A DNA stretch of 64,000 bases from Gammaproteobacteria bacterium (lineage in GTDB: Bacteria > Pseudomonadota > Gammaproteobacteria > Xanthomonadales > SZUA-36). The stretch is taken from the NCBI GenBank assembly GCA_021772915.1, contig JAJFLB010000018.1:310001-374000 (forward strand), given 5' to 3'. Positions 8,518 to 58,461 of this stretch are shown in pieces; position 1 is the stretch's first letter; every line of letters starts with the position of its first letter. The notes below the pieces were generated by a model. The model ran no database searches. It saw only the letters and a program-made list of their open reading frames with translations, and was not told where the DNA came from. A program made the position numbers and the translations under genes.

Positions 8518-8919
8518 TTAATCTGGAGAAAAGACCGAGATGACTTCTACCGATCGGAATTGGGCTTGCTCTTAGCGCTGGCAGGAGAGTTGTCGGAGCC
8601 TTCACCTGCCTTGTTTGGACCTTCGAAACAGTTGCCCCCCTGCCAAAGGGACTGCCTGGGGGCACCAGTCCTCCAGTAAGAAGAACTAAAAAAACGCCAA
8701 ACCACCAGAGGTCGATCAACGGGTCAGTTGAGGTCTACTTCATTGTCCGCCGTAAACAGTGGTTTAAATACTCAAAAAGTGGATACTTGCTACGTAAGCT
8801 GGTAGATTTTCCACGAGAGCTTGCCGGCCTGTCTGGCGCCTGAGACAACTAGATAGCGAGTGGCGTAGCCAATTCTCAAGCACCGTACATGTCCCCAATT
8901 ACCTTTCCCGTAGGACCTT
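8518..8919. other. Intergenic region, 402 bases, no supported gene
   Basis: No convincing coding frame. A GC-rich inverted repeat TGCCCCC (8633-8639) and GGGGGCA (8658-8664) with an 18-base loop is present but has no T-run. A minus-strand open frame here (8429-8719) overlaps the aminotransferase 3' end and looks fortuitous. The promoter of the sulfatase-like gene should lie in the right half. Confidence 0.6.
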
Positions 8920-22873: not shown

Positions 22874-25800
22874 CTAGGAAAAACTACTTGGACGTATTTG
22901 AAGAAGCCCCAGAAGACCGATAATCAAAATGAGAAATAACAGAACCCGGAAATGAAAAACAGGAATTGTTTCAGGTGGGGGGATAACAGTGATAGTCACC
23001 TTGGTATCGGCGCTGTCCAGGTGGCCGTCATTGGCACGGTATATAAAGGAATCAGACCCGGCAAATCCAGAGTCAGGTATATAGACAAAGCCACCCCCAC
23101 TGATCAACGAAAATATGCCGTGAGACGGTGGACTGATCAGGTTCACACTTAATTCGTGCCCTTCCGGATCGGTGTCATTACTCAATATACCGGGGCTAAA
23201 GAGGGTTAACCCGTTACTAGATGTCACGGTTACGCTGTCAGGAGTGGCTAGCGGTGGAAGGTTGACGACTTTCTTGGTAACGATGATATGGACTGTGGCC
23301 GGACTGCTACTCAATGATCGATCATGCGCAACGTATTTGAAACTGTCAGTACCAGAGAAGCCGCTGGCAGGTGTATAGCTAAATCCCCCTACACCGTCGA
23401 TAGCCAGCAACCCGTGGCCTGAAGGCGCCGCCAGAATCGTGGTGAGAATATCCCCATCCGGATCACTGTCATTACCCAACACACCAAGTGGCCCGATCAC
23501 CAGGGTCTGGCCTTCCACCATACTGTAGATGTCATTGGCTGCAACCGGTGCATGATTCACGGCAGATACGGTAATGCTAACAGTCGCCGGTGAACTGCTC
23601 AGATGGCCATCGCTGACCGTGTAGGTGAAACTATCGGTCCCCGTGAATCCAGCGTTGCCCTGATAGAGAAACCCACCACCGTTAACCGGTGTCAGTGTGC
23701 CTGACGCCGGCTGGGTCAAAAGCGTTGCAGACAGCGCGTGCCCTTCCGGATCAAAGTCGTTCGTCAAAACACCAGGCACCGGGATATCCAGCAACACGCC
23801 CTCAGGTGTCGTGTAAATATCAGCATTGGCTATCGGCGGAAGATTGACGAGCTTCTTGATGACCGTGATGTGGACCGTGGCCGGATCACTCACAAGCGCA
23901 CCATCGTTAACAACATAAGTAAAAGTATCCGTGCCGAAGAAGCCTGTATTGGGGTGATATTGCAAACTGCCATTGGCCGCAAAAGACAGCACGCCATTGG
24001 CGGGCTGGGTCACCGGTCCCATGACAAGCTGGTGACCTTCCGGGTCGGTATCATTGGCCAGTAGATGCGGTGGCGGCACGCTCAGCATACCGTCTTCAAC
24101 GGTTTGATAAGTATCACCATTAGCAATCGGTTTTTGATTGACGGGCGTTACAATTAGTGTCGTAACACCGATGGTTTGGACGCTCCCGTCAGACACACCA
24201 TATTGGAAATGGTCGATGCCGGTGAAGCCAGGATTGGGTACGTAAATGAACCCGCCATCCAGCGTGATGCTCAAAGTGCCGTTGGCCGGCTGGGTAATTC
24301 GGTGAGCAGTCAACGGGTCCCCATCCGGATCGTAGTCATTGCGTAACAGCCCGCGACTTCCCGGCACAGACAAGCGGGTGTTTGCCGGTAAGCGGTATTT
24401 TTCAGCACCCACAACGGGTGCGGAATTAACGGCGCTAACCGCGATTACTACTACCACCGGGGGGCTTTCCAGGTGACCATCAAACGCAGCGTACGTGAAT
24501 AAATCGAAGCCTGTGAAGCCCGCATCAGGTTGGTAAACCAAATCAGGCCCGATCCGGATTACGGTACCGTGTGCCGGCGACGACTTGATGACCGCCGTAA
24601 GCAAATTGCCATCGGGGTCACTATCATTACCAAGCAAGGCCGGTGCGGCGACATTCAATCGGGTGTCCTGTGGGACAACGTAACTGTCTCTCTGGGCAGC
24701 TGGCGCGTGATTAACAGGTATAACATTAATGCTCACACTCGTTTCTGCACTGGCAAAGGTGTTGATACGACTTAGAAAAAAGCGATAAGTAAATGAATCG
24801 GTACCTGTAAAACCTGCTTCCGGTGTGTAAACGAAACGGCCATCGGTTTCCATTGTGAAGCTACCAGGCGCCGCGTGTGCAGGTCCGCTTGTTATTTTGA
24901 TCTGTGGACCGAGTAAGACATCCTGTATGAAAGCGTGTCTATCATCATTCCAGACTACACTCTGATGTGCGTCTTTGATCTCAAGCTTCACACCCTCTCT
25001 GGTGGTGTAGCGATCCGGAAGCGTCTTGATAAGGTCAAAACTCTTTGTCACCTTGATCGCAACGGTTGCGATATTGGCTGGCGTTGCGCCTGAGCTCATA
25101 CGATAAGTAAATGTATCAGTACCATGGAAATTCAAGTGAGGGAGGTATTTAAAGGTACCATCTGCGTTGAAGGCGAAGACAGTGCCATTGGAGGTTCCAG
25201 ATACCAGGATTGCGGTTTTCAGTTTAGCCGGATTAAACTGATCATCGTTATCCAGAAGACTGTGCGGGGCCGAGGTGAGTATCGTATTTTCAGTCATGGA
25301 GAATGTATCGTCGCGGGTATAATCTACAGCAATTTCCGAGGCCCCTATGTCAACCCTTGCACCAAGAAAGCGTGCGCCCCCCAAAATGTCTTTGTCGAGC
25401 AAGCCTGGAAAGGCCTTATCGGGATCAAGCGCAACTGAATCCAGTCCTCCATCAATCATGGGTGGACCTGGCGGGATAAAGCAGAGTTTGGGGTGACGGT
25501 CACACAGGAAAGGGGTGTTCGGTAAGCCTGACGACCCGGTACTCGCCGCAGCGACAGATCCGTCAGTAACCAAGGAGTCAGGAGAGGCAAGTAACAGGGC
25601 GCCGCCCACACCGACCAGTGGGGGGCTTCCGGCAGCGTGTGTTGGTGCCGACACCACGGTATTGAACAAACCCAATATGCCCGAACCTTGCAGCGATACA
25701 TGCGAGCCAGCCGCCGGACCGAAACTCGGTCCCAGTGGCATGGAACGCGCCGACGGCATAGTGATGGTGCTGTTGAACACATCAATATTGGCGTTAAATC

Positions 25801-26746
25801 CCTGGATACCACCTGCAAAAGCACTGCTTCCTGTATCGAGCAACAGTGTGTTGGCGATTTTTGCCGTGCCACCGCTGATGACAACCCGGACATGCCCTCC
25901 CCGGAATATTGACTCACGAATAATCACCGCATCATTTGTCGCTCCTGCATCAAACTGCATAAATTGCGCACCCGCTGTATTCCACGAGAACTCTGTACTT
26001 TCGATTCTGGCTGCACCATTAACGAACACGATTGCATCACGAAAGGAAGTTGTTGATATCCGGTTTGACTGCACATCTACATTTTTTAGTATCAGCTCTC
26101 CCTCGTGATCAATAATGGGTTTTTCGCACTGGAAGGGACCACTAAAGTTTTCAGTGATAAGTACATCTTCAAAAGTGACCCTGCCAGGATCAATAGCTCT
26201 CAGAACACCAAAGTTCTGCTTGAATGTCATCCCCTTAATGAGTACTTCGGGATTAGTGCTGCCTTGAATTGTGAGCACCACTTTACCGTTAGCTACCAGG
26301 ATGTTACCGGCGTCGCAGGATAGCCCACCATTGACCACACCACTGGGAGTTACCCATGTCACTAGGTCGCTGAGTTTCAGGGTAGCTCGGCCATGACCAA
26401 CAATATCTACCGAATCGCTGATGGTGATGGTCGCATTCAAGCCAGCACCACTGGTGTCGGCGGTAGGCCGAATGTCTGTCACGCCTGGGCTGAACTCTAC
26501 ACGATCCTTGCCGGGATTCGCGTTCGCCTGATTGATCGCATCCCGCAGCGATCCGGGGCCTTGCCAGGAACCATTGGTGACGGTGAAGGTTATTGAGAAT
26601 GCAGGACTGGAAAGCACCAGCAACACCAGACCAAGAACCATGAACTTGCAACACACGTAAGCACCGTGTGGCTCGTCAACAGTGTGGCCTGCCACGGGTG
26701 AATCTACCTCAGAGCATTGTTCCGTGCTTGCACGTACTCGTTGCAT
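22874..26746 (-). CDS. Giant surface protein with eight cadherin-like/Ig-like repeats
   Basis: 1290 residues. A signal helix (VLGLVLLVLSSPAFS) lies unusually far from the ATG at 26746, so a start at the internal ATG before VLGL is an alternative. Residues 60-480 form a parallel-beta-helix-like (CSLREA type) region beginning GSLRDAINQANAN. Eight tandem modules of roughly 90-100 residues follow, each with D-x-Y...G-x-L-x-N-D-x-D-P-E/D-G and GFxGTDSFTY, the Big_9/cadherin-like pattern that binds calcium. The C-terminus has a PPPETIP segment, one transmembrane helix and a short tail, close to the IPTL-CTERM sorting layout. It is probably an exported adhesin or matrix protein. Confidence 0.88.
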   Translation of the reverse strand: MQRVRASTEQCSEVDSPVAGHTVDEPHGAYVCCKFMVLGLVLLVLSSPAFSITFTVTNGSWQGPGSLRDAINQANANPGKDRVEFSPGVTDIRPTADTSGAGLNATITISDSVDIVGHGRATLKLSDLVTWVTPSGVVNGGLSCDAGNILVANGKVVLTIQGSTNPEVLIKGMTFKQNFGVLRAIDPGRVTFEDVLITENFSGPFQCEKPIIDHEGELILKNVDVQSNRISTTSFRDAIVFVNGAARIESTEFSWNTAGAQFMQFDAGATNDAVIIRESIFRGGHVRVVISGGTAKIANTLLLDTGSSAFAGGIQGFNANIDVFNSTITMPSARSMPLGPSFGPAAGSHVSLQGSGILGLFNTVVSAPTHAAGSPPLVGVGGALLLASPDSLVTDGSVAAASTGSSGLPNTPFLCDRHPKLCFIPPGPPMIDGGLDSVALDPDKAFPGLLDKDILGGARFLGARVDIGASEIAVDYTRDDTFSMTENTILTSAPHSLLDNDDQFNPAKLKTAILVSGTSNGTVFAFNADGTFKYLPHLNFHGTDTFTYRMSSGATPANIATVAIKVTKSFDLIKTLPDRYTTREGVKLEIKDAHQSVVWNDDRHAFIQDVLLGPQIKITSGPAHAAPGSFTMETDGRFVYTPEAGFTGTDSFTYRFFLSRINTFASAETSVSINVIPVNHAPAAQRDSYVVPQDTRLNVAAPALLGNDSDPDGNLLTAVIKSSPAHGTVIRIGPDLVYQPDAGFTGFDLFTYAAFDGHLESPPVVVVIAVSAVNSAPVVGAEKYRLPANTRLSVPGSRGLLRNDYDPDGDPLTAHRITQPANGTLSITLDGGFIYVPNPGFTGIDHFQYGVSDGSVQTIGVTTLIVTPVNQKPIANGDTYQTVEDGMLSVPPPHLLANDTDPEGHQLVMGPVTQPANGVLSFAANGSLQYHPNTGFFGTDTFTYVVNDGALVSDPATVHITVIKKLVNLPPIANADIYTTPEGVLLDIPVPGVLTNDFDPEGHALSATLLTQPASGTLTPVNGGGFLYQGNAGFTGTDSFTYTVSDGHLSSSPATVSITVSAVNHAPVAANDIYSMVEGQTLVIGPLGVLGNDSDPDGDILTTILAAPSGHGLLAIDGVGGFSYTPASGFSGTDSFKYVAHDRSLSSSPATVHIIVTKKVVNLPPLATPDSVTVTSSNGLTLFSPGILSNDTDPEGHELSVNLISPPSHGIFSLISGGGFVYIPDSGFAGSDSFIYRANDGHLDSADTKVTITVIPPPETIPVFHFRVLLFLILIIGLLGLLQIRPSSFS

Positions 26747-33594: not shown

Positions 33595-35613
33595 TTACCG
33601 GTGAACGAAGGGCGCTTTTTGACCTGCCCCTTTGCTCATGAAGACATCCAGACCGATCCACATGTCCTCGGTTTCGATACATTTGCCAAATGACCGGGAC
33701 TCGAGCTCAAGTCCGTCGGCCAGGGTCATATTCGCACCCGTGTATATTGCATCGACCAGGATGGCATCAATGGCCTTGCTGTGATAATCGATATCCAGAT
33801 TCTCAGGTTCACTAACGTTCTCCATCGGCCCGGTTTCTATCGCTGGCAGGACCACACCACCCTCTGCGATCTGCTGGACCAGCGATACACCGGCTTCCAC
33901 CAGATCGCCTTCGATTTCTGCTCGCGCCAAACCGATTTCCACAGCCTCCGAGGAAGACACGGGCCGGGCGGTGCGTAATATTTCCGCGGCCTTGCTGATG
34001 CCAACCAGTCTTGGCAAGCGTTGCGTGCCACCTGCACCGGGGATAAACCCCAGGTTTACTTCGGGCTGACACACCGCGATACGCAGGCCTGCTTTACAGA
34101 TTCGTGTGGTGCACGCCATACCCAGTTCGGCACCACCGCCAAAGGCAAAACCATTCCAGGCGCACACCACGGGCTTGTCCAGGGCCTCGATAAAATTACA
34201 CACCTGCTGGAAATTCTGCGAATTATTATAACCCGCCTCGGCTGTTTTGCAGGCTGCCAGATCATTGATATCTGCACCCGAAACGAAAGCCTTGACGCCG
34301 AAGCCGGTTAGTACCGTGCCGATGATCTCAGGATCGCTTTCCACCTGTGTAAATTTATCCCGCAGCTCTGCCAATACCGTCGTGTCGACGGCGTTGAGAA
34401 CCTTGGGTCGCTTAATGGTCAGCACGGCAACATTACCGAGCGTCTTGCGGGTCACATTGGAAAGTTCCCACCCACCCGCTTCACGTGCGGCTGCAAGTGC
34501 CTTTGGGATTGGAAATCCATCGTTGTCAGTGCACCAGTCCGCGACAAGATCGTAGGCCTTATCAATACCGATTGCGTTCATCATCGAAAAAGGTGGTTTG
34601 ATCACCAACGCGATTTCACAGGCCTTGTCCAGATCGCTGATCGAACAAATTCCCAGGTCGGCAATGTACGCAGCCAGTGCAAAAAAGGCGCCCCTGACCT
34701 GGTCACGCAACACCGCCTCCGTTTCCGCATCTACCTCGATCACATCACCCTTGGAGGCAATATCCCACCGCTCACCGGCGGCGATCAACTCTTTCAACAG
34801 GCGGGGTGATTTGAACCAGGGCTGTAACTGCGTATACATTTCATCCAGACCGTGATCGGTAATTTCGTTGCCACCGGCCAGCGTTACCGCTGTCACCGGC
34901 CCAACACCACAGCCCAGCGTATCCATTGATACCCGGTCAATTTCTTTCACCGTTCCATAGCCTTTTTGCAAGCACAGGATCGCGTTCAGAAACAGTCCCT
35001 CGAAAATGGGGTCGATTGCATAGCCGTAGGAACTGGCCACTTCCATCGGCACCTTCCCAATCGCTTCATACATACCCAGCAAATTTGCGGTCAACACCGG
35101 ATCAGTGTCCGCACCCGGTACGATTTCCACGATCGGATTTCGCTCCGCAGGAAAAAAGTAATGCGCCACCAGGCAGCGACCGGGATTTGAAGTGTTACGA
35201 AAAATGACCTCCGGGCGCATATGTGAGGAATTTGAAAGAAAGATCGCACCGGCGTCACAGATGGCATCCACCTGCTTGAAGATAGCGTCCTTGATACCCT
35301 CGTCCTCGGTGGCGGCTTCAAGCACCAGGCTGGATCCCGCGATATCATCGTAGTTTTCCGTGTAGCTAATGCTGGCGAGCATTTTATCGGCGTGTTCGGG
35401 TCTGAAGGCACGTGCTTTTACACCGCTTGCGACCTTCTTTTCAATCCGCGCCCGGGCGTTTTCCAGCGCCTGCACGGCGATGTCCACGAGTACCAGCTTG
35501 ACCCCATCACCCGCGAATACCTTGGCAAAATGGAGACAGATATCCGGGCCGATATTACCGGCCCCGATGATGGTAATTTTTGTGAGTTCTATATCTTTGA
35601 ATTGATAACTCAT
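33595..35613 (-). CDS. 3-hydroxyacyl-CoA dehydrogenase / enoyl-CoA hydratase fusion, reversed domain order
   Basis: 672 residues. Residues 10-310 are a 3-hydroxyacyl-CoA dehydrogenase: IIGAGNIGPDI NAD loop, LEAATED, SNSSHM, and VAHYFFPAERNPIVEIV with the catalytic His and Glu. Residues about 385-600 are a crotonase: LTIKRPKVLNAVD, SGADINDLA, GFAFGGGAELGMAC (Glu) and QPEVNLGFIPGAGGTQRLP (second Glu). FadB and FadJ have hydratase first, dehydrogenase second; here it is the other way round. It should carry out two beta-oxidation steps on an unknown acyl-CoA. The ATG overlaps the upstream CobT-like stop by four bases (ATGA) and also has AGGAC seven bases upstream. Confidence 0.9.
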   Translation of the reverse strand: MSYQFKDIELTKITIIGAGNIGPDICLHFAKVFAGDGVKLVLVDIAVQALENARARIEKKVASGVKARAFRPEHADKMLASISYTENYDDIAGSSLVLEAATEDEGIKDAIFKQVDAICDAGAIFLSNSSHMRPEVIFRNTSNPGRCLVAHYFFPAERNPIVEIVPGADTDPVLTANLLGMYEAIGKVPMEVASSYGYAIDPIFEGLFLNAILCLQKGYGTVKEIDRVSMDTLGCGVGPVTAVTLAGGNEITDHGLDEMYTQLQPWFKSPRLLKELIAAGERWDIASKGDVIEVDAETEAVLRDQVRGAFFALAAYIADLGICSISDLDKACEIALVIKPPFSMMNAIGIDKAYDLVADWCTDNDGFPIPKALAAAREAGGWELSNVTRKTLGNVAVLTIKRPKVLNAVDTTVLAELRDKFTQVESDPEIIGTVLTGFGVKAFVSGADINDLAACKTAEAGYNNSQNFQQVCNFIEALDKPVVCAWNGFAFGGGAELGMACTTRICKAGLRIAVCQPEVNLGFIPGAGGTQRLPRLVGISKAAEILRTARPVSSSEAVEIGLARAEIEGDLVEAGVSLVQQIAEGGVVLPAIETGPMENVSEPENLDIDYHSKAIDAILVDAIYTGANMTLADGLELESRSFGKCIETEDMWIGLDVFMSKGAGQKAPFVHR

Positions 35614-37541
35614 GCTGTTTGTCCTGCTGCTTGTGTTAATTCGTACGGATGACGTACGGTCCTTGGCACGTTACCCAGTAATTCAATCAGTTCATAGGCC
35701 ATGGCGTCACCCAGTTGTTCGGTATCTGTGATCGTCACGCTGCGTCGGTAAATATTTTGTACATCGTGGCCGATGCCGATGGCAAGCAATTCGACGTCGG
35801 ATTTTTTCTCAATCCAGTCGACAACCTGGCGTAAATGCGTTTCCAGATAGGCACGACCATTGGCGGTCAGGGTGGCATCGTCGGCCGGCACGCCGTCGGA
35901 AATAACCACCAGGATGCGTCGTTGTTCCCGCCGGCCTGCCAGACGGCGGTGTGCCCACAACAACGCCTCACCATCGATATTTTCTTTGAGCAATGCCGGC
36001 CACAGCATCACACCCAAGGACTGCCGGGCTTTGCGCCACGGCTCGTCCGCGAGCTTGTAAATGATATGGCGTAAATCACTCAATCTGCCCGGGCTACCGG
36101 GTTTACCGTTAGCTGACCACGACTCACGTGTCTGCCCACCCCTCCAACCGGCCGTCGTAAAACCAAGAATTTCCGTTGCAACGTGGCAACGTTCCAGCGC
36201 CTGGGCGAGGATGTCAGTGAACATGGCCGCCAATGCAATGGGCTGACCACGCATCGAGCCGGAATTGTCGATCAGAAATGACACCACGGTGTCACGCGTC
36301 TCGCTGTCCCGTTCCTGTTTGTAGGCCAGCGGACTGGACGGATCAATCACCAGACGGGACAGACACGTCGTATCCAGCAATCCATCGTCAAGGTCAAATG
36401 TCCAGGTCCGCTTTTGCAATGTCCTGAGACTGTTTTGCAGACGCTTGGCAAGTCTCACAGCAACCCGCCGGTGGCTTGAAATCTCCTGATCCAGCTTGGC
36501 CCGGTATTGCTGCAGTTGATCCTTTGTAAGCAATCCCCTGGCGTTTACCACTTCGTCAAAACGCGTGGTATACGCATGATAGGTAATGGTGTCGGCTGCG
36601 CTCCGGCCTTTGCCACCCGGCTCTTCGGGATTTGCCTGCGTGGTGTCGTCCAATGGTGCGATGGGTTCATTGTCCGTGTTCAAGGGGAAGGGAATGGTGG
36701 TCGCCGCATCACCTGGGTCGGGTCTGTGATCTGAGCTGTCGCCTGATACCGACTCAGCATCCTCAGGCCTTTCATCGCTCTGTGTGGCGGTCGCACCAAA
36801 TCCTCCTTGCTCTTCGCTGTTGTTACTTTGGCCATTGACACTGCTGTCCGGCTCAAAACCGGTCTCTGCCTCACTGTCACCCGGCGACATTTCCGCTTCT
36901 TTCGGTTGCGAACCCTGCTCGGGCAGGTCAACCAGTTCCAGGCTGCCGACGAGGCGCCTCGCACAGTGGGAAAATTCCACCTGGTCCGCTGTCACAGCAC
37001 AAAGCGCCTCAACATTCTCGCCTGCACGTGTATTGATCTCGTCCTGCCAGCGGGAGACGTATCGGGTGGCCGCTAGCGGACTGTCGAGCAGACGGGTACG
37101 CAGCATTAATACGACGGCGTTGGCCATGGGCGTCGCCTTGTCCGAGTCAATCACATTGACACCACGTTCGTTAAATCTTTGCTCAAATACTGCCGCGAGG
37201 TTGGCTGCAACGCCCTGCCAAACTCGTGCAGCGCACACCTCGATACGTACATTCTCAAGCGCGTCATAAAGAGCGCGAGACAAAGGCCCTGGTGGTGCAT
37301 TCAGGTAATGCACTTCGGCATCGTGAAAGCGAGCACGCATGGCAATGGCATCGTAACAGCCACGCAGGGCCCCGACCTTGCCAGACTGCACGACTTCATC
37401 GGACAAGGGCAATTGCGGACGCTGACCGTCCCTGGAAGATTTGCAGCCAGGAAAACTCAACAACATGTTGGAGTCACCTGTCAGTGCGCGAGCGGTGCCC
37501 TCGAGCAGCTGTCCAATATGCTCGTTACTGACTGGCAGCAT
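35610..37541 (-). CDS. CobT-like VWA-domain protein (cobaltochelatase CobT family)
   Basis: 643 residues from ATG 37541, which lies inside the 3' end of the CobS-like gene. The N-terminal 190 residues match the CobT helical region (GALRGCYDAIAMRARFHD, ALYDALENVRIE). A long acidic, low-complexity linker follows (about 210-320), then a C-terminal VWA domain with the MIDAS motif LIDNSGSMRG near 424 and VISDGVPADD. In aerobic B12 synthesis CobS and CobT power cobalt insertion by CobN; no CobN or other cobalamin gene is here. The stop overlaps the HAD-ECH start, so these proteins are likely made in proportion. Confidence 0.85.
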   Translation of the reverse strand: MLPVSNEHIGQLLEGTARALTGDSNMLLSFPGCKSSRDGQRPQLPLSDEVVQSGKVGALRGCYDAIAMRARFHDAEVHYLNAPPGPLSRALYDALENVRIEVCAARVWQGVAANLAAVFEQRFNERGVNVIDSDKATPMANAVVLMLRTRLLDSPLAATRYVSRWQDEINTRAGENVEALCAVTADQVEFSHCARRLVGSLELVDLPEQGSQPKEAEMSPGDSEAETGFEPDSSVNGQSNNSEEQGGFGATATQSDERPEDAESVSGDSSDHRPDPGDAATTIPFPLNTDNEPIAPLDDTTQANPEEPGGKGRSAADTITYHAYTTRFDEVVNARGLLTKDQLQQYRAKLDQEISSHRRVAVRLAKRLQNSLRTLQKRTWTFDLDDGLLDTTCLSRLVIDPSSPLAYKQERDSETRDTVVSFLIDNSGSMRGQPIALAAMFTDILAQALERCHVATEILGFTTAGWRGGQTRESWSANGKPGSPGRLSDLRHIIYKLADEPWRKARQSLGVMLWPALLKENIDGEALLWAHRRLAGRREQRRILVVISDGVPADDATLTANGRAYLETHLRQVVDWIEKKSDVELLAIGIGHDVQNIYRRSVTITDTEQLGDAMAYELIELLGNVPRTVRHPYELTQAAGQTA

Positions 37542-38514
37542 CACGGATCGTGCTGATAATGGTTTCTGGCAAATCCTCATCGAAACAACGTTGATAGAAC
37601 TCGGCGACCATGGGACGTTCCAACTCATCACAACGGTTCAAAAAGGTCACCTTGAAAGCGTAAGCGGCAGTTCCGAATATTTCGGTATTGCGGCACCAGT
37701 TGATAACCGTGCGTAGTGACATCACGGTGGAAAGATCACCGTTCATGAAACCCTGCCGGGTCAGGTTGGCGACCTGTACCATTTTACTCAGCAAAGCCCG
37801 GCCCTTTTCATTCTGATAAGCCGGTGCCTTGGCCAGCGCGATATCCAGTTCCTCATCATGCGCCAGGTAGTTGAGTGTGGTGATGATGTTCCAGCGATCC
37901 AGCTGTCCCTGGTTGATTTGCTGCGTGCCGTGGTAAAGGCCCGTAGTGTCGCCAAGGCCGATGGTATTGCTGGTGGCAAACAGACGAAATGCCGGATGCG
38001 GCTGAATGATGCGGTTTTGATCGAGTAGGGTCAGCCGGCCTTCGGCTTCCAGCACCCGCTGGATCACGAACATGACGTCCGGACGGCCTGCATCATATTC
38101 ATCAAATACCAGGGCCGTAGGGGTTTGTAATGACCAGGGCAAAATCCCCTCACGGAACACGGTCACCTGCTTCGAATCCTGCAGCACGATGGCATCGCGG
38201 CCGATCAGGTCCACCCGCGAGATGTAGCTATCGAGATTCACCCGCACACAGGCCCAGTTCAACCTTGCCGCCACTTGCTCTATATGGGTGGTTTTGCCGC
38301 TGCCGTGGTAGCCCTGCACCATCACCCGTGCGTTATGGGCAAAACCTGCTAGCAGGGCCAGTGTGGTTTCAGGATCAAAGCGATAAGCCTCATCCAGTTC
38401 CGGAACGTAATCACCGGCGGATGAAAATTTTGGCACCTGCATATCGGAATCAACGTCGAACAGGTCACGTGCGCAAACCATCTGGTCCGGCACATTGTCG
38501 TAGCCGGAGGTCAT
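37525..38514 (-). CDS. CobS-like AAA+ ATPase (cobaltochelatase CobS family)
   Basis: 329 residues from ATG 38514, chosen because AAGGA lies seven bases upstream; ATGs at 38529 and 38532 lack a site. The sequence follows CobS closely: DSDMQVPKFS, Walker A GYHGSGKTTHIEQVAARL near 68, RVNLDSYISRVDLIG, Walker B ALVFDEYDAGRPDVMF near 136, FRLFATSNTIGLGDTTGLYH. The C-terminal helical lid is present. It should form a hexamer working with the CobT-like VWA partner, with which it overlaps by 17 bases. Whether the target is a cobalt chelatase or another client is open. Confidence 0.88.
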   Translation of the reverse strand: MTSGYDNVPDQMVCARDLFDVDSDMQVPKFSSAGDYVPELDEAYRFDPETTLALLAGFAHNARVMVQGYHGSGKTTHIEQVAARLNWACVRVNLDSYISRVDLIGRDAIVLQDSKQVTVFREGILPWSLQTPTALVFDEYDAGRPDVMFVIQRVLEAEGRLTLLDQNRIIQPHPAFRLFATSNTIGLGDTTGLYHGTQQINQGQLDRWNIITTLNYLAHDEELDIALAKAPAYQNEKGRALLSKMVQVANLTRQGFMNGDLSTVMSLRTVINWCRNTEIFGTAAYAFKVTFLNRCDELERPMVAEFYQRCFDEDLPETIISTIRDAASQ

Positions 38515-38548
38515 TTCAGGTTCCTTCATCACGGGGATTCGTCAGGGG

Positions 38549-39004
38549 TCAGTAAGTCTCGAGTTGCTTAACCAGCGCAGCCCACTCATCGGCCAGTAGA
38601 TTTTCGGCCATCGGATACAACATGCCCTCCTCCTTGACGTTATGCTGTTGTGTCAACATCAGCAGCGTATCACCCAGATCCAAGGCTTTTTCTGCGTCTC
38701 CGGAATCCATCGCGGCGCCGATCTCATCAAGCAGTCCACGCATCTGTTGGTGTTCCATTTTCATCACCGCGGTGGGTCCCCCACCACCCATTCCGCTTTT
38801 GGCCTCGAAAGCCGGAAAAAGCACATCTTCCTCCATGCCCATGTGCCGGCGCATACCTTTTTCATATTTCTCCCAGGCCTCCCGGGCTGTATCAATGTCT
38901 TCGCTGTCGAGGAGTTCCTCAACGTCCACCCAGCGCGCATCACAATCCCGGTGATCCTGTATAAAAAAGTCTACCAGGCTGGCTTCGTTATCCATGCTTG
39001 TCAT
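38549..39004 (-). CDS. Hemerythrin-domain protein
   Basis: About 151 residues from ATG 39004, which has GGAG six bases upstream. A four-helix hemerythrin with non-haem diiron ligands visible in order: FIQDHRD (His), HMGMEEDVLFPAFE (His and Glu), MEHQQMRGLL (His) and QHNVKEEGMLYPM (His, His/Glu). Such single-domain proteins bind O2 or NO, or sense iron and redox state. The gene is the first of the minus-strand CobS/CobT/HAD-ECH run (34-base gap) and is divergent from a DUF2249 gene, a common partner of hemerythrins in nitrogen-oxide gene sets. Confidence 0.85.
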   Translation of the reverse strand: MTSMDNEASLVDFFIQDHRDCDARWVDVEELLDSEDIDTAREAWEKYEKGMRRHMGMEEDVLFPAFEAKSGMGGGGPTAVMKMEHQQMRGLLDEIGAAMDSGDAEKALDLGDTLLMLTQQHNVKEEGMLYPMAENLLADEWAALVKQLETY

Positions 39005-39107
39005 GTGGTTCTCCATAGGGCCTGGCATATTGTCGGCCAATGGCCTATTTTACCAATACCTGCCAAGAATTGAACCACTTGTCTGAATAGGCGCGTAATC
39101 TGAGCTA

Positions 39108-39569
39108 ATGAGCAATTCAGCCACAGAATCATTAATGATAATGGAGCTACCTCCAACGTTTGATGGCGATGAGCAAGCATTGCAAGGCTTGCTGGAATCC
39201 GTGGCTAAACTGTCATCAGATGGAGTGCTGAAATTGAATGCAGAAAACCGGCCGGATGCGTTGATCACATCGCTGAGAAACCAAAATTACGATGTGCAGG
39301 TGCGTCAATGGAATTCCAGGGCCTGGGATGTCGAAGTACGTGCATCATGGATACCGGCAATTGCCGACCTGCGGGACTTCGAGGCCCCATTGCCGATGGA
39401 AAAAGTACTCGTGGCCTGCTCACAACTGGGTGCCGGCGAGCTGTACCTGGCGCGTCTTCCCAGGGTTCCGGTTATGTTGTTCCCACACCTCGAAACCCGC
39501 GGTCTACACTGGCAGGTGTATGAAGAGCATGACCAAAGTGCACTATTGCTGGTCAGGAAGCCGGCGTGA
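39108..39569 (+). CDS. DUF2249 domain protein
   Basis: 153 residues. The C-terminal part shows the DUF2249 pattern: LRDFEAPLPMEKVLVACSQLGAG, LPRVPVMLFPHLETRGLHW and a closing beta strand. The N-terminal half (LPPTFDGDEQALQGLLESV, NRPDALITSLRNQNYDVQV) looks like a second, diverged copy or a SirA/TusA-like fold. DUF2249 is known from gene sets with hemerythrin, NnrS and heme-copper proteins. Its stop overlaps the next gene by four bases (GTGA), so translation is coupled. The biochemical role is unknown. Confidence 0.8.
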   Translation: MSNSATESLMIMELPPTFDGDEQALQGLLESVAKLSSDGVLKLNAENRPDALITSLRNQNYDVQVRQWNSRAWDVEVRASWIPAIADLRDFEAPLPMEKVLVACSQLGAGELYLARLPRVPVMLFPHLETRGLHWQVYEEHDQSALLLVRKPA

Positions 39570-40861
39570 GTCCGGCCATGGCCACCGGCGGGCTTAGCCT
39601 GGAACAGGCACCGCGTTTATTTATTCCTGCCAGTTTTTTCCTGACCGTACCGATGGGCATGCTGGCTGCGGGTTTGATCCTGATTTTGATGGGTGCCCAG
39701 CCACTTGGCAGTCCGTGGACACCATCAGCCCTGGCCCTTGCACATGCCGGCACCCTGGGCGTACTGGCGATGGGGATGATAGGTGCGCTCTACCAGATGA
39801 CCCCGGTTGTCGTGGGCACGCCGGTACCATTTACACGGCTGGCCCACGTGGTTCACATCCTGTTGTTGGCAGGTCTGGCTGGTTTCTTGTGGCGTCTGCT
39901 GGGTGGGCCGGCGCTCGCAATGTCAATTGCAATCTATTGTTTTAAGGGCGCCCTCGTGTCCTTTCTGTTGCCACTGGGCTGGGCCCTACTGCGCCCCGCT
40001 ACGCGTGATGAAACAGTTCGGGGTATACGCCTGGCAGTTGTGAGTCTCGCAGTCATTACGATCATCGGCTTGGTCATGGCAAGAACGCATAGCGGCGGTG
40101 TGTTTACCGGAGACCGGGTGTTGTGGTTGCAAATCCATCTGACGCTGGCCCTGCTCGGCTGGGTCGGCGGGCTGATCATCGCAGTATCGTGGCAGGTAAT
40201 CCCGATGTTTTATCTGGCGCCGGTGGTCAGCAAGACCACACAACGCTGGTTGTTTGGATTACTACTACTGGGCCTGGTCTTACCCTTGGTCATAGCAGGC
40301 TTCAAGTGGCAAGCCAATGGTCTGCTGTCTCCGGGTAAAGTTGCTGCCGTCAGTACGTTTCCAGCGGCACTCGCCGTCTGGTTATTACATCCGTCCCTGA
40401 TTCTACACAAGCTCTCACAGCGCAAGCGCAAGCGGAGTGACGCGTCGCTACTGTTTTGGCGGGCTGGCCTCGTCAGTGCGCTGCTATTGATTCCACTCGC
40501 CCTGGCGGCAGTGCTACTTGTAGACCCCCGCTGGCAAGTGCTGTTTGGCTGGGTGTCTATCTGGGGTTGGGGTGGCTTGATCATGCACGGCATGCTGAGC
40601 CGCATCGTGCCCTTCCTGGTCTGGTTCCACAGTTACTCGGCGCAGGTCGGTCTGCAAAGCGTTCCTTCGATGCGCAGCCTGTTATCACAACAACGTATCA
40701 AGACGGGGTTTGCCTTGCATTTTGGATCTTTGGTGGTCGGTGTTGCGGCAATTGTTTTGCAACCGGACTGGCTGGCGCAACTCACCGGTGTGCTACTGGT
40801 GACGACTGCACTCAGCCTGCTCAGCATGCTGGTGCACGTGTTAAGAAGGAATTCACAATAA
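39566..40861 (+). CDS. Polytopic heme-copper-oxidase-like membrane protein
   Basis: 431 residues and about twelve transmembrane helices. HAGTLGVLAMGMIGALYQM early in the protein resembles the haem-ligand helix of cbb3-type subunit I, and WLQIHLTLALLGWVGG, SWQVIPMFYLAPVV and GWGGLIMHGMLSRIVPFLVW add conserved His and aromatic positions. It is shorter than a catalytic subunit, so a haem-binding but not oxygen-reducing protein is more likely. NnrS-like proteins are another possibility. Start GTG 39566 overlaps the DUF2249 stop. Together with hemerythrin this suggests nitric-oxide or oxygen response, by context only. Confidence 0.75.
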   Translation: MSPAMATGGLSLEQAPRLFIPASFFLTVPMGMLAAGLILILMGAQPLGSPWTPSALALAHAGTLGVLAMGMIGALYQMTPVVVGTPVPFTRLAHVVHILLLAGLAGFLWRLLGGPALAMSIAIYCFKGALVSFLLPLGWALLRPATRDETVRGIRLAVVSLAVITIIGLVMARTHSGGVFTGDRVLWLQIHLTLALLGWVGGLIIAVSWQVIPMFYLAPVVSKTTQRWLFGLLLLGLVLPLVIAGFKWQANGLLSPGKVAAVSTFPAALAVWLLHPSLILHKLSQRKRKRSDASLLFWRAGLVSALLLIPLALAAVLLVDPRWQVLFGWVSIWGWGGLIMHGMLSRIVPFLVWFHSYSAQVGLQSVPSMRSLLSQQRIKTGFALHFGSLVVGVAAIVLQPDWLAQLTGVLLVTTALSLLSMLVHVLRRNSQ

Positions 40862-44161: not shown

Positions 44162-45529
44162 TCAGTCGTAGACCTGCACGATGATTGTACTGGTATGGAA
44201 CGTGGTGGTTTTACCGTTTTTTCGTAGTCTGTACTTGGCGGTAAAGGTAGTGTTGCCGTTGATCTGGAGCAGGAAAGAAGCGCTCTGAGCCATGTTACGA
44301 CCCGGAGACTCACCAACATCACGACTGCTACCAACAGCAAAATCATCATCTGCAGACTGCGCCAGGCCACCACTGGCCTCAAACCCCATCCAGCAGCCCA
44401 CATCCTTGTCACTGGCAGAGCAATGGGTCGTCAACGTCACCAAAACTCGCTGCGAACCAGTAGCCAATACGGTCAGGACCGCGGCTGTTCCGGTGGCCGG
44501 CGCGGCGTATGTGGTGGACGTGGCGGTGACCACACCACTGGCGGTTCCGTCGAGCGCACTGCTAAACACACTGTTGCCGGGGCCGGTCGTTCCGGTATCA
44601 CCGGTATCTCCTTTTGGCCCGGTTGAACCAGTCGGCCCGGTCGATCCAGTATCACCGGTATCCCCTTTTGGCCCGGTTGAACCTGTCGGCCCGGTCGATC
44701 CAGTATCACCGGTATCTCCTTTCGGTCCAGCTGAACCTGTCGGTCCGGTCGGTCCAGTATCACCGGTGTCTCCTTTTGGCCCGGTTGAGCCTGTCGGTCC
44801 AGTATCACCGGTGTCTCCTTTGGCTCCGGCTGACCCGGTATCACCAGTGTCTCCTTTCGGTCCGGCTGAACCTGTCGGTCCGGCCGCCCCAGTATCACCG
44901 GTATCTCCTTTTGGCCCGGTTGAGCCTGTCGGTCCAGTATCACCGGTGTCTCCTTTGGCTCCGGCCGACCCGGTATCACCGGTGTCTCCTTTAGGTCCGG
45001 CCGACCCGGTATCACCGGTGTCTCCTTTAGGTCCGGCTGACCCGGTATCACCCGTGTCTCCTTTGGCTCCGGCTGACCCGGTATCACCGGTGTCTCCTTT
45101 AGGTCCGGCTGACCCGGTATCACCAGTCTCTCCTTTCGGTCCGGCTGAACCTGTCGGTCCGGCCGCCCCAGTATCACCGGTGTCTCCTTTGGCTCCGGCT
45201 GACCCGGTATCACCGGTATCTCCTTTCGGTCCGGCTGGTCCGGTGGCACCGACTGGACCAATTGCGCCTATCGGTCCGATACCTCCGCCAACAGAACCCG
45301 AATCACAATTGGTTATTTGGCCGGTGGCCTTGTCATAACAAAGGGGATACGAACTCTGCGGAGTGCTTCCAAGATCAGGGGCTCTCACCTCACCCGAGAT
45401 AATGACCGCGCCCCCGGCGCCGGGGGTAATCTCAACATCCTGGGCCAATAGCACACCGGACCACAGCATGGCGGCGATGCATACAATCAGTAAATGTTCA
45501 GTTTGAGATTTTTGTACGTGGTGGACCAT
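44162..45529 (-). CDS. Collagen-like GXY repeat surface protein
   Basis: About 455 residues from ATG 45529; an ATG at 45541 and a GTG at 45544 are alternatives. A signal peptide ends GVLLAQ. A short head carries [16 protein letters not shown], then about 75-80 Gly-X-Y triplets dominated by [10 protein letters not shown] with SAG, PTG and STG variants. A globular tail ([40 protein letters not shown]) resembles C-terminal trimerising domains of bacterial collagen-like proteins. It should form a secreted triple-helical rod. The repeat DNA is highly regular, so repeat number probably varies between strains. Confidence 0.85.
44580..45285. repeat. Tandem DNA repeats encoding collagen-like triplets
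   Basis: Units of 18, 27 and 36 bases recur with few changes (core GGTGATACCGG / GGTCCTAAAGGAGA in coding direction). All are multiples of nine, so gain or loss of units keeps the frame. The opposite strand is open for long stretches because of the same periodicity. Confidence 0.8.
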
Positions 45530-45656
45530 GAGTAGCACCATCACCCTCGATTAGTTGACGCATTATACCTGCAATACCTGTCTTGAAAAGTAACCTGGAC
45601 CCAGCTTCCCGTAGATGCACCACGTCCTCAAGTAATGGTCAACCACACTGACCTTT

Positions 45657-47321: not shown

Positions 47322-50300
47322 ATGAATACGCAATCTCAGATATCTTCAAGTACTGGTTCGCCACGCTACCGCCTGGAGGATGCCTTTACGCTGAATAAAG
47401 GCCGGGTATTCGTCTCCGGTACCCAGGCGCTGGCCCGGTTACCCATGTTGCAACGCCAAAGGGACATGGCCGCAAAGTTGGACACACGTGGTTTCATTTC
47501 CGGCTACCGCGGCTCACCATTGGCCGGTTATGACCTGGTACTCGAGTGGGCGAGCCAATATCTCGATGAACACGGGATCACCTTTGTGCCCGCAATCAAT
47601 GAAGAGCTTGCAGCAACCGCCATTATCGGTACGCAGCAGGTCGCGGCCCAGTCCGACGCCAACTGCGCCGGTGTGTTCTCCTTATGGTATGGCAAAGGCC
47701 CAGGTCTGGACCGTGCCGGCGATGCCCTCAAGCACGCAAACTCCATGGGTTCATCGCGACACGGTGGTGCATTGGTGGTCGTGGGTGATGATCACAGCGC
47801 AATCTCATCGGCAATGGCTCATCAAAGTGAACAACTGTTCGCCTCCTGGATGATGCCGGTCTTACATGCCGCCAACATTGGGGAGATCCTTGATTTCGGC
47901 TTATTTGGCTGGGCGATGTCACGCTTTTCGGGCTGCTATGTGGGCTTGAAAATAGAAAGTGAGATCATTGAATCCGCCGCATCGGTCTACATTGACAACC
48001 AGCAACCGGTGATCGTCCAGCCCAAATTTGATTTCCCAACGGACGGCGTTCATTACCGCTGGCCCTACCAGCAACTCGATGCCGAATCGCGCTTGCAAAA
48101 CTTCAGGTTGCCCGCAGCCATGGCGTTTGCGAAGTCAAATGCCATAGACCAAGAAATATGGGGTGGAAAACATGCCCGTTTTGGCATTATCACCAGCGGC
48201 AAAGCCTACCTTTCGGTCCGCCAGGCGCTTGCTGAACTGGGAATAACCGAAGCACGCGCTGCCGAGGCAGGTCTGTGTATTTACAAGGTCGGCATGCCCT
48301 GGCCACTGGAAACAAGTGGCGCCAGGAGTTTCGCCAGCAACCTTGAAGAAGTGCTGGTAATCGAAGAAAAACGTAGCTTTATTGAAAGCCAACTTAAAGA
48401 AACGCTTTTCGATCTGCCGACATCTGACCGGCCACGGGTACTTGGAAAGACCGACGAACAAGGCAACCCCCTGGTCCCCTCCACAGGAGTACTTTCACCC
48501 GAAACCATCGCGCGGATAATTGCACAACGATGGCCCACAACCACAACAGGAAGCCTCGCCGCGGACTATTTTGCGCGAATTGCACAGCAAGAGGATGTGA
48601 TCCGTCTTGCGGGCACCCCCCGCACACCATTTTTCTGCTCCGGCTGCCCACATAATCGGTCTACAGTTGCACCACAGGGCGGTCGTGTACTTGCCGGCAC
48701 CGGTTGCCACCTGATGGCCGTTTTCATGGACCGTGACACCAGTGGGTTTTTGCACATGGGCGCGGAAGGCGCGAACTGGGTAGGACAAGCCCCGTTTTGT
48801 AAGTCCACACATATTTTCCAGAACCTCGGGGATGGAACCTATACGCATTCGGGTTCCTTGGCGATACGCCAGGCGGTCGCAGCGGGTATTAATATCACGT
48901 ACAAGATACTTTACAACGACGCCGTGGCCATGACCGGTGGGCAACCGGTGGACGGCGGCTTGACCGTACCGCAGATTACCCAACAGCTGCACGCCGAGGG
49001 GGTTGTGCGTACCGCAGTAGTTTCTGATGAGCCGGATAAGTACACCTCGAACCTGGTTTTTGCTCCGGGCGTGACCAGGCATGATCGCAGTCACTTGCAG
49101 TCAGTTGAGCAGGAGTTGAGCGATATAGCCGGTGTCACCGCGTTGATCTATGACCAGCTTTGTGCCGCTGAGAAGCGACGCCGGGCACGGCGTCGCAAAT
49201 CGAAGGCTGTCGAAACCCGTTTGTTTATCAACGAGGCAGTATGTGAAGGCTGTGGTGATTGTGTTAAACAGTCCAATTGCCTGTCGGTCGTGCCCACCCA
49301 AACAACTCTGGGTATCAAGCGCCAGATTGATCAGTCCTCCTGCAACATTGATAAATCCTGCCTGGAGGGTTTTTGTCCCAGTTTCATCAGCATCACCGGG
49401 GCAAGACCGGCGACCATCACGCGCAGCGCTGCCAAAGGACTTGATACGGCCATTGCCGACCTGCCGGACCCGCAACTGCCGGATTTGCAAAATGCCTTTG
49501 ACATGGTGATCACCGGTATCGGTGGCCAGGGTGTTGTCACCATCGGGCGTATTGTCGGCATGGCTGCACACCTCGAAGGCCTGGGTTGCTCGGTTCTGGA
49601 TTTTCCGGGGCTGGCTCAAAAAGGTGGCGGAGTGATGTCTTACACCCGCATTACTAGAAGCCCGGAAACCATTCAGGGCTCCCGTGTGCCACTGGGCCAG
49701 GCCGATCTCCTGCTCGCCAGTGACATGGTAACGGCTTTGGGTGCAGAGACCATTGGCAGGATACGCAAAGATGTCACCCGTGCGATTGTAAACAAACACG
49801 TCGCACCGACCGGGGCCAACGTACTCAACCCGGACAGTTTGCTTGAACCAGACAGACTCAGGGATGGAATTGTTGCCGCTGTCGGCAATACGAATCCCCG
49901 GTTTGTCAACGCAACTACACTCAGTGAGAAACTCAGCGGCGATACGATCACAGCCAATATCCTGCTGTTGGGTTATGCCTGGCAGGCGGGCACGATCCCA
50001 CTCAGCTACGCGGCCATCACCCATGCAATCAAGCTCAACCGGGCTGGTGCCGACACCAATATACGATGTTTCGCTTATGGGCGGCTCGCGGCACACGACC
50101 CCGAGTTGATGCAACAGCTTTCGGGTGTTGGCATACCACAGGAATCACGCGAAGAAAAATCTCTGGATGAGACCATCGCGTTGCATGAAAAGCAGCTTGT
50201 CGCTTACCAGAATGTTGCCTACGCAAAGCGCTACCTGTCCCTGGTCACTACCGCCCGTCAATCCGAGTCGCAGCTTGCGGTTGAAGGGGAGGAGTTCGGC

Positions 50301-50822
50301 CACGCGGTCGCTCGTGGGTTTTTCCAGACCATGGCTTACAAGGACGAGTACGAAGTGGCAAGACTGCATACCAGTGAAACATTCACACACCAATTGCAGT
50401 CTATGATTTCTGGAGATTTCAAGATCACACACCATTTTGCGCCACCATTATTTACGCGCCGCAATCGTCAATCAGGCAAACTTCACAAGATCGCGTTTGG
50501 ACCCTGGATCCGACCATTTTTGAGAGTGCTTGCCAAACTCAAGATACTACGCGGCACACCATTTGATGTCTTCGGTTACACCCGGGAACGTCGCCGGGAA
50601 CGCAGGCGCATCGAAGAGTACGAGCAAACGATAAGTGATCTGTGCGCTTCACTTTCAATCAGCAATCTGCAAACCGCAACGCAGATTGCTGCACTGGCGT
50701 CAACTATTCGTGGCTACGGGCACGTTAAGGAATCCAATGCAAAACAAGCCGGCAAACAGCTAAACGGCATACTGCACAAATCGGAACCGGACCAGCTACA
50801 AACTGAGTTACCAGACCATTGA
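47322..50822 (+). CDS. Fused indolepyruvate ferredoxin oxidoreductase (IorA-IorB)
   Basis: 1166 residues, the one-chain proteobacterial form. The TPP-enzyme part includes SGYRGSPLAGYDLVLE at the start, FCSGCPHN, LAGTGCHLMAVFMDR and NLGDGTYTHSG with the TPP-binding GDG. Ferredoxin-type cysteines follow near residue 640 (CEGCGDCVKQSNC, then CNIDKSC and CPSF), then the gamma-type domain (ITGIGGQGVVTIGRI, DFPGLAQKGGGV). It decarboxylates aryl-pyruvates to aryl-acetyl-CoA with ferredoxin as acceptor. The MarR gene lies upstream. It looks complete. Confidence 0.93.
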   Translation: MNTQSQISSSTGSPRYRLEDAFTLNKGRVFVSGTQALARLPMLQRQRDMAAKLDTRGFISGYRGSPLAGYDLVLEWASQYLDEHGITFVPAINEELAATAIIGTQQVAAQSDANCAGVFSLWYGKGPGLDRAGDALKHANSMGSSRHGGALVVVGDDHSAISSAMAHQSEQLFASWMMPVLHAANIGEILDFGLFGWAMSRFSGCYVGLKIESEIIESAASVYIDNQQPVIVQPKFDFPTDGVHYRWPYQQLDAESRLQNFRLPAAMAFAKSNAIDQEIWGGKHARFGIITSGKAYLSVRQALAELGITEARAAEAGLCIYKVGMPWPLETSGARSFASNLEEVLVIEEKRSFIESQLKETLFDLPTSDRPRVLGKTDEQGNPLVPSTGVLSPETIARIIAQRWPTTTTGSLAADYFARIAQQEDVIRLAGTPRTPFFCSGCPHNRSTVAPQGGRVLAGTGCHLMAVFMDRDTSGFLHMGAEGANWVGQAPFCKSTHIFQNLGDGTYTHSGSLAIRQAVAAGINITYKILYNDAVAMTGGQPVDGGLTVPQITQQLHAEGVVRTAVVSDEPDKYTSNLVFAPGVTRHDRSHLQSVEQELSDIAGVTALIYDQLCAAEKRRRARRRKSKAVETRLFINEAVCEGCGDCVKQSNCLSVVPTQTTLGIKRQIDQSSCNIDKSCLEGFCPSFISITGARPATITRSAAKGLDTAIADLPDPQLPDLQNAFDMVITGIGGQGVVTIGRIVGMAAHLEGLGCSVLDFPGLAQKGGGVMSYTRITRSPETIQGSRVPLGQADLLLASDMVTALGAETIGRIRKDVTRAIVNKHVAPTGANVLNPDSLLEPDRLRDGIVAAVGNTNPRFVNATTLSEKLSGDTITANILLLGYAWQAGTIPLSYAAITHAIKLNRAGADTNIRCFAYGRLAAHDPELMQQLSGVGIPQESREEKSLDETIALHEKQLVAYQNVAYAKRYLSLVTTARQSESQLAVEGEEFGHAVARGFFQTMAYKDEYEVARLHTSETFTHQLQSMISGDFKITHHFAPPLFTRRNRQSGKLHKIAFGPWIRPFLRVLAKLKILRGTPFDVFGYTRERRRERRRIEEYEQTISDLCASLSISNLQTATQIAALASTIRGYGHVKESNAKQAGKQLNGILHKSEPDQLQTELPDH

Positions 50823-57870: not shown

Positions 57871-58461
57871 TTATATCGTGGGAGCCATGCGTTTTCTTAG
57901 TTCTTCCAGCAGTTTTTTGTTTTCCTCAACACTGTCACCACCTCCATAGGTAAATAATCCGGATGAAAACTTTCCACCAAAGGAAGTGGCAACGTTCAGA
58001 ATCTGCACAACGGCACTGGCGAATTGGTCCTGGTCCAACGGTGACAAAGGATGAATAAACACACCCCAGATTAACTTGTTGGCAACGGCATAGCGTGCGT
58101 CCAGGGCAGAATCGAAGTTGGCCTGTAACATACGCCGCATCAGCCCCGGATTTAATAATTTCTCCGGTCCAATGGGTGTGAACATTCTCATCCGGTCAGC
58201 CTTCTCGTCGAATACCACCATGAAGGGTCGGTCCTGGAAAGTGAATTGCCAGACACTGCCTTCATGAGTCGCGTCAGCATCAAGCGTCCGAACGAGCTCT
58301 CCTAACCGGGCACCGGTCATCTTGCTGCCGTCTTTATCAATCTCGCCTTCACCCTGTTCCAGGTTCGGGGAGGGTACGGCAGGGATAGTGAAATCATCGG
58401 CTGACACAACTGTTGCCACGAACACAATCGCCACTGTCATAATTAATTTAGTGTTCATCAT
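57871..58461 (-). CDS. Exported protein of unknown function, YbjN-like fold
   Basis: 196 residues with signal peptide ending TVVSA. The body alternates helices and strands (GSVWQFTFQDRPFMVVFDE, DRMRMFTPIGPEK, LMRRMLQANFDSALDARYAV, KLIWGVFIHPLSPLDQDQF), the layout of the YbjN/type-III-chaperone-like fold. A low-complexity Gly stretch and charged helix end it. It lies between the DUF481 operon and the divergent TPP-enzyme gene. No function can be given. Confidence 0.72.
   Translation of the reverse strand: MMNTKLIMTVAIVFVATVVSADDFTIPAVPSPNLEQGEGEIDKDGSKMTGARLGELVRTLDADATHEGSVWQFTFQDRPFMVVFDEKADRMRMFTPIGPEKLLNPGLMRRMLQANFDSALDARYAVANKLIWGVFIHPLSPLDQDQFASAVVQILNVATSFGGKFSSGLFTYGGGDSVEENKKLLEELRKRMAPTI

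Follow-up and report, generated by a model that had tools for sequence, protein, structure and literature searches.

A CobS-CobT-like pair without a CobN match beside a beta-oxidation fusion enzyme: a candidate activase system in a gammaproteobacterial genus

The stretch of DNA analysed here ("the window") spans 64,000 nucleotides of contig JAJFLB010000018.1 (positions 310,001 to 374,000) from the gammaproteobacterial assembly GCA_021772915.1. It carries adjacent genes for a CobS-like AAA+ ATPase, a CobT-like protein with a von Willebrand factor A (VWA) domain, and a fusion of 3-hydroxyacyl-CoA dehydrogenase and enoyl-CoA hydratase (HAD-ECH). We define the three genes as the "triad", the first two as "CobST", and the conserved group of genes in which they stand as the "block". 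In some uncultured bacteria, two of the three parts of the cobalt-insertion machine of vitamin B12 synthesis are found beside HAD-ECH without the third, suggesting that the ATP-driven pair has been re-used on that enzyme. We propose, with a probability of about 0.5, that CobST has no chelatase role in this organism and is dedicated to the downstream HAD-ECH as a remodelling activase resembling CbbQO. The proposal is based on the lack of a CobN-type gene, intact sequence motifs, exclusive co-occurrence and adjacency of the three genes in the genomes sampled, an apparent transfer of the block between genera, and a fusion of CobS to CobT in one relative.

The gene order given in the initial annotation, hemerythrin, CobS, CobT and then HAD-ECH, was borne out, with all four genes on the minus strand. 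HAD-ECH (33595..35613), the proposed client, has 672 amino acids, matches Pfam 3HCDH_N, 3HCDH and ECH_1, and ends in KAPFVHR; Pfam and alignments place the dehydrogenase at residues ~10-285 and the hydratase at ~386-590. The CobT-like adaptor (35610..37541; Pfam CobT and CobT_C) has 643 amino acids and comprises an N-terminal domain, a variable linker and a VWA domain with a metal-ion-dependent adhesion site (MIDAS; DNSGS, T, D). Its start is taken as the ATG at 37541, the alternative being a GTG at 37631 where the mechanically called open reading frame (ORF) begins. The CobS-like ATPase (37525..38532; Pfam CobS_N and AAA_5), with Walker A GYHGSGKT and Walker B ALVFDEYD, is 335 amino acids long from the GTG at 38532 and could also start at the ATG at 38514. 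Both overlaps reported earlier are exact: 17 bases between the CobS stop and the CobT start (37525..37541), and four bases, ATGA, between the CobT stop and the HAD-ECH start (35610..35613). The latter is not conserved, with gaps of 42, 57, 66 and 12 bases in relatives and 4 bases in G334. The hemerythrin-like gene (38549..39004; HHE domain, PF01814) encodes 151 amino acids from an ATG at 39004, and lies 34 bases upstream of CobS, as annotated, when counted from the ATG at 38514, and 16 bases upstream when the GTG is used.

Conservation of the three-gene unit

The triad was present or absent as a whole. Eleven genomes were compared, ten from the genus and one (G298) from another genus; six have all three genes adjacent, five have none of them, and no genome has a partial set. 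The five that lack the triad are 77-97% complete, so some of these absences may be gaps, but G320, the most complete at 97%, has none of the three genes either. Searches with HAD-ECH (matches at E <= 1e-60) found orthologs with 79-83% identity in 6 of 200 genomes sampled from the order, the window's own included, and these were confined to the same genus and one genome of a second genus in the family. Four more genomes of that sample had matches at 29-31% identity, and a sample of 299 genomes from the phylum yielded the window itself and one match at 30%.

CobS and CobT lie directly upstream of HAD-ECH in all six genomes that have an ortholog together with upstream sequence. This count includes G467, in which the assembly breaks inside HAD-ECH and the CobST contig carries the enzyme's first 116 residues. 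In G341 a small contig ends in a further, incomplete copy of HAD-ECH (76%), with its upstream side out of view. A scan of named genomes placed the fusion at seven loci in six metagenome-assembled genomes (MAGs) titled Gammaproteobacteria, Lysobacterales or Oceanospirillales (Dive96_bin10.186, Dive100_bin2.37, A5-S04_187, bin10o, SZUA-36 and OFTM312), and CobST is present at all four of these loci that have upstream sequence. Only A5-S04_187, whose fusion starts at a contig end, adds to G341, G298, G334, G467 and G378. An initial contig scan with CobT as the query had found no relative. The arrangement is more than chance, because the triad recurs in 6 of 6 genomes, which are close relatives, and the adjacency is conserved wherever it could be checked. 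In a tree of 20 CobS sequences the block members form a clade of their own with support of 100/100 and a long stem.

The copy in G298 appears to have arrived horizontally. A tree of an rpoB fragment (1136-1137 amino acids) groups G298 with the block-less G327 (support 87/88) and, with G313 added, at 100/99, and places it outside the genus at 100/99. For this fragment G298 has a mean identity of 86.0% to the block-bearing members of the genus, which are 91.9% identical among themselves. The block genes do not follow this pattern: identities across and within the genus are 82.5 and 82.8% for HAD-ECH, 81.8 and 82.8% for CobS, 56.0 and 58.5% for CobT, and 69.0 and 69.7% for the polytopic membrane protein encoded on the hemerythrin side. 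Since these genes are nearly as similar across genera as within, unlike rpoB, the simplest explanation is a move of the whole block, with its hemerythrin side, from one genus to another. Beyond the block, the only similarity between the flanks of the G298 locus and the window is a weak TonB-type match (28%). On the substitution estimates, CobS (pN 0.06-0.16, pS 0.57-0.73) and HAD-ECH (pN 0.09-0.12, pS 0.69-0.75) are under purifying selection, the synonymous values (pS) being near saturation.

Motifs, client tail and proposed mechanism

All six block members retain the Walker A, Walker B and sensor-1 regions and the three MIDAS stretches, so the AAA+ protein with its VWA partner has the make-up of a MoxR-type pair in each of them. 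CobS has its best matches among CobS proteins and matches CbbQ weakly (E 4e-7), placing it outside the CbbQ/NirQ/NorQ subfamily; a defence-system role was rejected, the one pointer to it being a weak IetA ATPase match for CobS. In the five HAD-ECH sequences aligned, G17, G19 and G22 (NAD binding), H151 and E163 (dehydrogenase), and E496 and E518 (hydratase) are invariant, and the conserved positions line up with solved FadB-type alpha subunits; we take H151/E163 and E496/E518 to be the catalytic residues. HAD-ECH resembles the FadB/FadJ alpha subunit in having both catalytic domains and these active-site positions, but its domain order is the reverse of the ECH-then-HAD order of FadB/FadJ, it scores 236.3 bits against the FadJ model (cut-off 869), it is 29-31% identical to the other fusions found, and it is linked to CobST. 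AlphaFold models were too poor to use (confidence, pLDDT, 46.7 for HAD-ECH and 53.8 for the membrane protein).

In G341 one uninterrupted frame (L063:7413-9650, equivalent to L072:7697-9934) runs from CobS residues 2-320 into the linker and VWA domain of CobT (from about residue 205 in ATG numbering), and HAD-ECH follows it. The frame omits the CobT N-terminal domain; it is free of N, and a deletion in the assembly could also have produced it. PDB entry 21vu contains a C-terminal piece of CobS and an N-terminal piece of CobT, which suggests that these pieces dock. Because the entry pairs those two pieces, covalent fusion could make the CobT docking domain dispensable.

The C-terminus of HAD-ECH resembles that of the clients of CbbQO. 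It reads F-x-H-K/R in seven of eight sequences (two of the eight come from one MAG) and F-V-H-S in G334, so the penultimate His is present in 8/8 and a terminal K/R in 7/8. None of five distant HAD-ECH fusions has an F-x-H-K/R end. Among 292 mechanically chosen ORFs from the studied loci, five end in H-K/R, and three of the five are HAD-ECH. Passages of PMC4660213 state that the Rubisco C-terminus must end in H-K/R for CbbQO, the penultimate His being needed and the last residue open to change. We regard the likeness, an analogy between tails, as a lead.

In the mechanism that we propose, CobS would form a hexameric AAA+ motor and CobT would act as a VWA adaptor, docking on HAD-ECH through the MIDAS metal ion of its VWA domain. 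By burning ATP, CobS would pull or twist through the CobT linker, which would remodel or assemble HAD-ECH or release an inhibitor bound to it, as CbbQO does for Rubisco. A CbbQO-like activase is suggested because AAA+/VWA pairs act as remodellers of dedicated enzymes and HAD-ECH shares the H-K/R tail with the CbbQO client. Insertion of a metal into HAD-ECH is less likely than remodelling, because enzymes of this class use NAD and CoA substrates and no metal. For CbbQO itself, sections of PMC4660213 describe a VWA protein that binds a carboxylate on the Rubisco surface through its MIDAS, with the AAA+ part as the motor; for NorQD, the motor is proposed in part of PMC13036017 to twist and stretch the NorD linker.

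Set beside these systems, the block shares with CbbQO (as the same sections portray it) the plan of a MoxR AAA+ motor with a VWA adaptor, a metabolic enzyme as proposed client and the H-K/R client tail, but its AAA+ and VWA proteins belong to other subfamilies, and its putative client is unrelated to Rubisco. It is like NorQ/NorD, CoxD/CoxE and RavA/ViaA, as portions of the literature describe them, in joining a motor and a VWA partner that would act on a dedicated enzyme; it differs in that no metalloenzyme client is required and in that the hemerythrin-side genes can be separated from the triad. VWA8, according to passages of PMC11764017, combines AAA+ and VWA domains in organelles that carry out beta-oxidation (mitochondrial/peroxisomal) and is of unknown function. 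That likeness is an analogy only: VWA8 is a single large eukaryotic polypeptide, and no link to HAD-ECH was seen.

A number of observations weigh against a dedicated activase. The six triad genomes are close relatives, so the independent events are few, and they are draft assemblies; four of the five triad-less genomes are less than 90% complete. In five of six genomes, G298 included, the block also contains the hemerythrin, a DUF2249 protein and the membrane protein, and genes of one operon can share regulation without contact between their products. The catalytic residues of HAD-ECH are the usual ones, and nothing evident in the enzyme calls for a motor. The CobT N-terminal domain and linker diverge fast in the block, but we rejected this as a special feature since the same is seen outside the block, in the pair formed by the CobN-bearing G051 and G190. 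An H-K/R end also occurs by chance, in 2 of 288 ORFs other than HAD-ECH (about 1 in 150); one of the two lies directly upstream of another CobST, and its end is not kept in the sister genome. Lastly, none of six CobN/BchH-family proteins, the known kind of CobST client, has such an end, the two longest (L116 and L117) having a penultimate His followed by Val.

The missing large subunit and rival explanations

The initial annotation stated that no CobN is near, and this extends to the whole genome: the 4.68-Mb assembly (98% complete) has no match to the CobN/BchH/ChlH family PF02514, in a search that found matches in 5 of 14 control genomes, and a single match to PF06213 (CobT). PF02514 was likewise absent from all six block genomes. 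The further statement that no other cobalamin gene is near stands in part. No corrin biosynthesis gene occurs among the 30 of 48 window genes scanned with Pfam (other corrin genes were not searched for genome-wide), but B12-linked families do occur farther off, namely an MTTB-family gene (55089-56612) and MeaB (2357-3466). The MTTB-family methyltransferase lacks a corrinoid protein among the neighbours scanned.

One above-cut-off GATase_3 match per genome was found in seven of seven genomes. CobQ/CobB, a corrin amidase, was considered for it and rejected; in the window's own genome the match is probably DsrN, because it is located among dsr-like genes, which were named by inspection at two of the four loci retrieved (G000 and G320). 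This apparent dsr sulfur-oxidation cluster with its DsrN-like gene is at L079:6424-14212, and the organism may be a sulfur oxidiser.

The lack of a large subunit is common. In gammaproteobacteria, PF06213 matches above the cut-off came from 23 genomes (18 of 274 in one sample and 5 more of 200 in a second), and 18 of these 23 have no PF02514 match; some of the 23 are distant, such as G263, whose CobT is 26% identical. With four weak or fused cases (G140, G259, G367 and G341) included, the count is 21 of 27.

These results bear on the possibility that the pair is still a chelatase for cobalt or another tetrapyrrole metal, with a large subunit that is unrecognised or comes from outside through salvage or a phage. 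Both subunits belong to the CobNST families over nearly their full length, with AAA+ and MIDAS motifs and adjacent genes. CobS shares 56-67% identity with its counterparts at the other gammaproteobacterial loci compared, and 27% with that of the distant G263; it passes the cut-off of the NCBIfam equivalog TIGR01650 by 0.25 bits (558.8 against 558.55), with a block relative in L033 falling under it at 545.8; CobT can be aligned over nearly its full length to a solved cobaltochelatase CobT. CobST is reported from tailed archaeal and bacterial viruses, where it is explained, in passages of PMC8651126, as a hijack of host CobN. The pair nonetheless differs from CobNST in three respects: no CobN match in the genome, a CoA enzyme as operon partner, and a CobT score (570.9 bits) far under the TIGR01651 cut-off of 759.05, a cut-off that only one of ten CobT proteins scanned passes and that two CobN-bearing relatives also fail (718.6 and 647.6). 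With PF02514 missing from every block genome, no cobyrinate amidase apart from one match per genome, which is DsrN-like at the two loci inspected, and no corrin biosynthesis gene in the part of the window scanned, we consider a chelatase role very improbable.

The hemerythrin side offers another candidate. Divergent to the triad, on the plus strand, are genes for a DUF2249 protein (39108..39569; PF10006) and for the membrane protein (39566..40861; no Pfam family), which has about 12 transmembrane helices by count in a low-confidence structure model. CobST might act like NorQ/NorD, inserting or repairing iron in the hemerythrin or in the 12-helix protein, possibly heme-copper-like, with HAD-ECH as a passenger. 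The hemerythrin gene directly precedes CobS in five of six triad loci, the 12-helix protein has conserved histidines, one of its orthologs has a weak match to COX1 (E 0.0038, below the cut-off), and NorQD inserts FeB into nitric oxide reductase, as part of PMC13036017 reports. No nitric oxide reductase was among the 30 of 48 window genes scanned, and none was searched for genome-wide. The association comes apart in both directions, however. The exception among the triad loci, G334 (97% complete), keeps the triad, and hemerythrin and 12-helix orthologs were not found in its genome. All five triad-less genus members sampled have one or the other gene: hemerythrin in G320, G398, G423 (incomplete, at a contig end) and G452, and the 12-helix gene in G388 and G452. 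In G452 the order hemerythrin, DUF2249, 12-helix protein, metallo-beta-lactamase is intact without CobST, and in G120 CobST and a distant (33-39%) hemerythrin-DUF2249-12-helix cluster are on separate contigs. The hemerythrin as a specific CobST partner was therefore rejected as the best reading, and a NorQ/NorD-like role seems improbable to us. Of the two clients named in the initial annotation, the fusion is supported by the linkage and the apparent block transfer, and the hemerythrin is weakened by this separability, which makes HAD-ECH the better candidate. Because the two groups of genes separate both ways, the triad looks to have been inserted beside, or lost from, an older hemerythrin-side module. 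The hemerythrin, DUF2249 and 12-helix genes recur as a module of their own (38549-40861; L103:7144-9231).

It is also conceivable, though in our estimate unlikely, that CobST and HAD-ECH are merely co-expressed, because one catabolic condition calls for both or because they form a selfish operon, and that CobST acts on a protein encoded elsewhere. Other genes near the block look catabolic (one indolepyruvate ferredoxin oxidoreductase-like, a pyrroloquinoline quinone dehydrogenase and a TonB receptor). Other CobN-less gammaproteobacterial CobST adjoin quite different genes, which means that the operon partner varies across the family. A survey of 27 hand-picked neighbour proteins at such loci found no common partner: a DRL-type oxidoreductase (G093, G214), a HAD phosphatase (G214), an aldehyde dehydrogenase (G017), AurF and a Fumble-family kinase (G176), NAD synthase and a fatty-acid oxidation set (G190), DnaJ and a phytase-like protein (G290), and no family match in G046 and G120. 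In G265 the neighbours are a corrinoid protein, MttB, a DAO/GCV_T enzyme and XdhC, with a second copy beside PhoH. Some of these neighbours are probably unrelated, and G143, where PTA/PTB is the neighbour, does not count as CobN-less since a PF02514 match was found in its genome. The variety may come from several separate re-uses of CobST, or from no more than a loose gene order. A direct link between CobST and HAD-ECH explains two things better than co-expression does: that each of the 11 genomes has all or none of the three genes, and that the genes appear to have moved into G298 together.

Other loci and wider meaning

Some of the surveyed loci have features of their own. In G265 a CobN-less CobST (L042:1645-4437) stands directly after the corrinoid-binding protein, MttB-family methyltransferase and DAO/GCV_T enzyme (4471-9171), with XdhC on the other side; the corrinoid protein is a possible CobST client. 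In G214 (L037:8490-13383) and G093 (L036:8807-13181), genomes without a CobN match, CobST is in a same-strand cluster with the DRL-type oxidoreductase and, in G214, the HAD phosphatase. The CobT of G290 (L047:8442-11885) scores 1049.8 bits on TIGR01651; its neighbours are CobS and a DnaJ-domain gene, and the genome, which is 100% complete, lacks a CobN match. Within the window, 47322-50822 encodes a 1166-amino-acid protein with POR and DUF6537 domains, together with a MarR-type regulator; we take it to be the indolepyruvate ferredoxin oxidoreductase-like protein mentioned above. The two are kept near the block in G341, G378, G467 and G334, where only the homolog of the large protein was seen. 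Elsewhere the window encodes a collagen-like protein with long G-x-x repeats (44162-45544), a 1290-amino-acid protein with tandem bacterial Ig/cadherin-like domains (22874-26746), and a 196-amino-acid protein with a weak match to the CesT chaperone family barely over the cut-off (57871-58461).

Among the papers listed by full-text searches of open-licence PubMed Central, none linked CobST to a beta-oxidation enzyme. If the proposal is true, this pair would be, to our knowledge, the first CobS/CobT that functions outside tetrapyrrole metalation, as well as the first motor/VWA activase of a beta-oxidation enzyme acting on CoA thioesters. The CobS-CobT fusion, if real, would be a compact construct for structural work. 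A wider claim is more tentative, and we place it somewhat short of even odds: that CobST without a chelatase partner is a dedicated HAD-ECH activase working through the H-K/R tail, and that CobN-less CobST is a reusable remodelling module that separate gammaproteobacterial lineages have coupled to different enzymes. For ChlI/ChlD-type chelatases, passages of PMC9227772 describe small and medium subunits that occur without a large one as being of unknown function; the activase proposal would offer a testable answer to the question left open there. It would also mean that the standard label "cobaltochelatase subunit CobS/CobT" could be misleading for many genomes, given that 18 of 23, some of them distant, have no CobN-type match.

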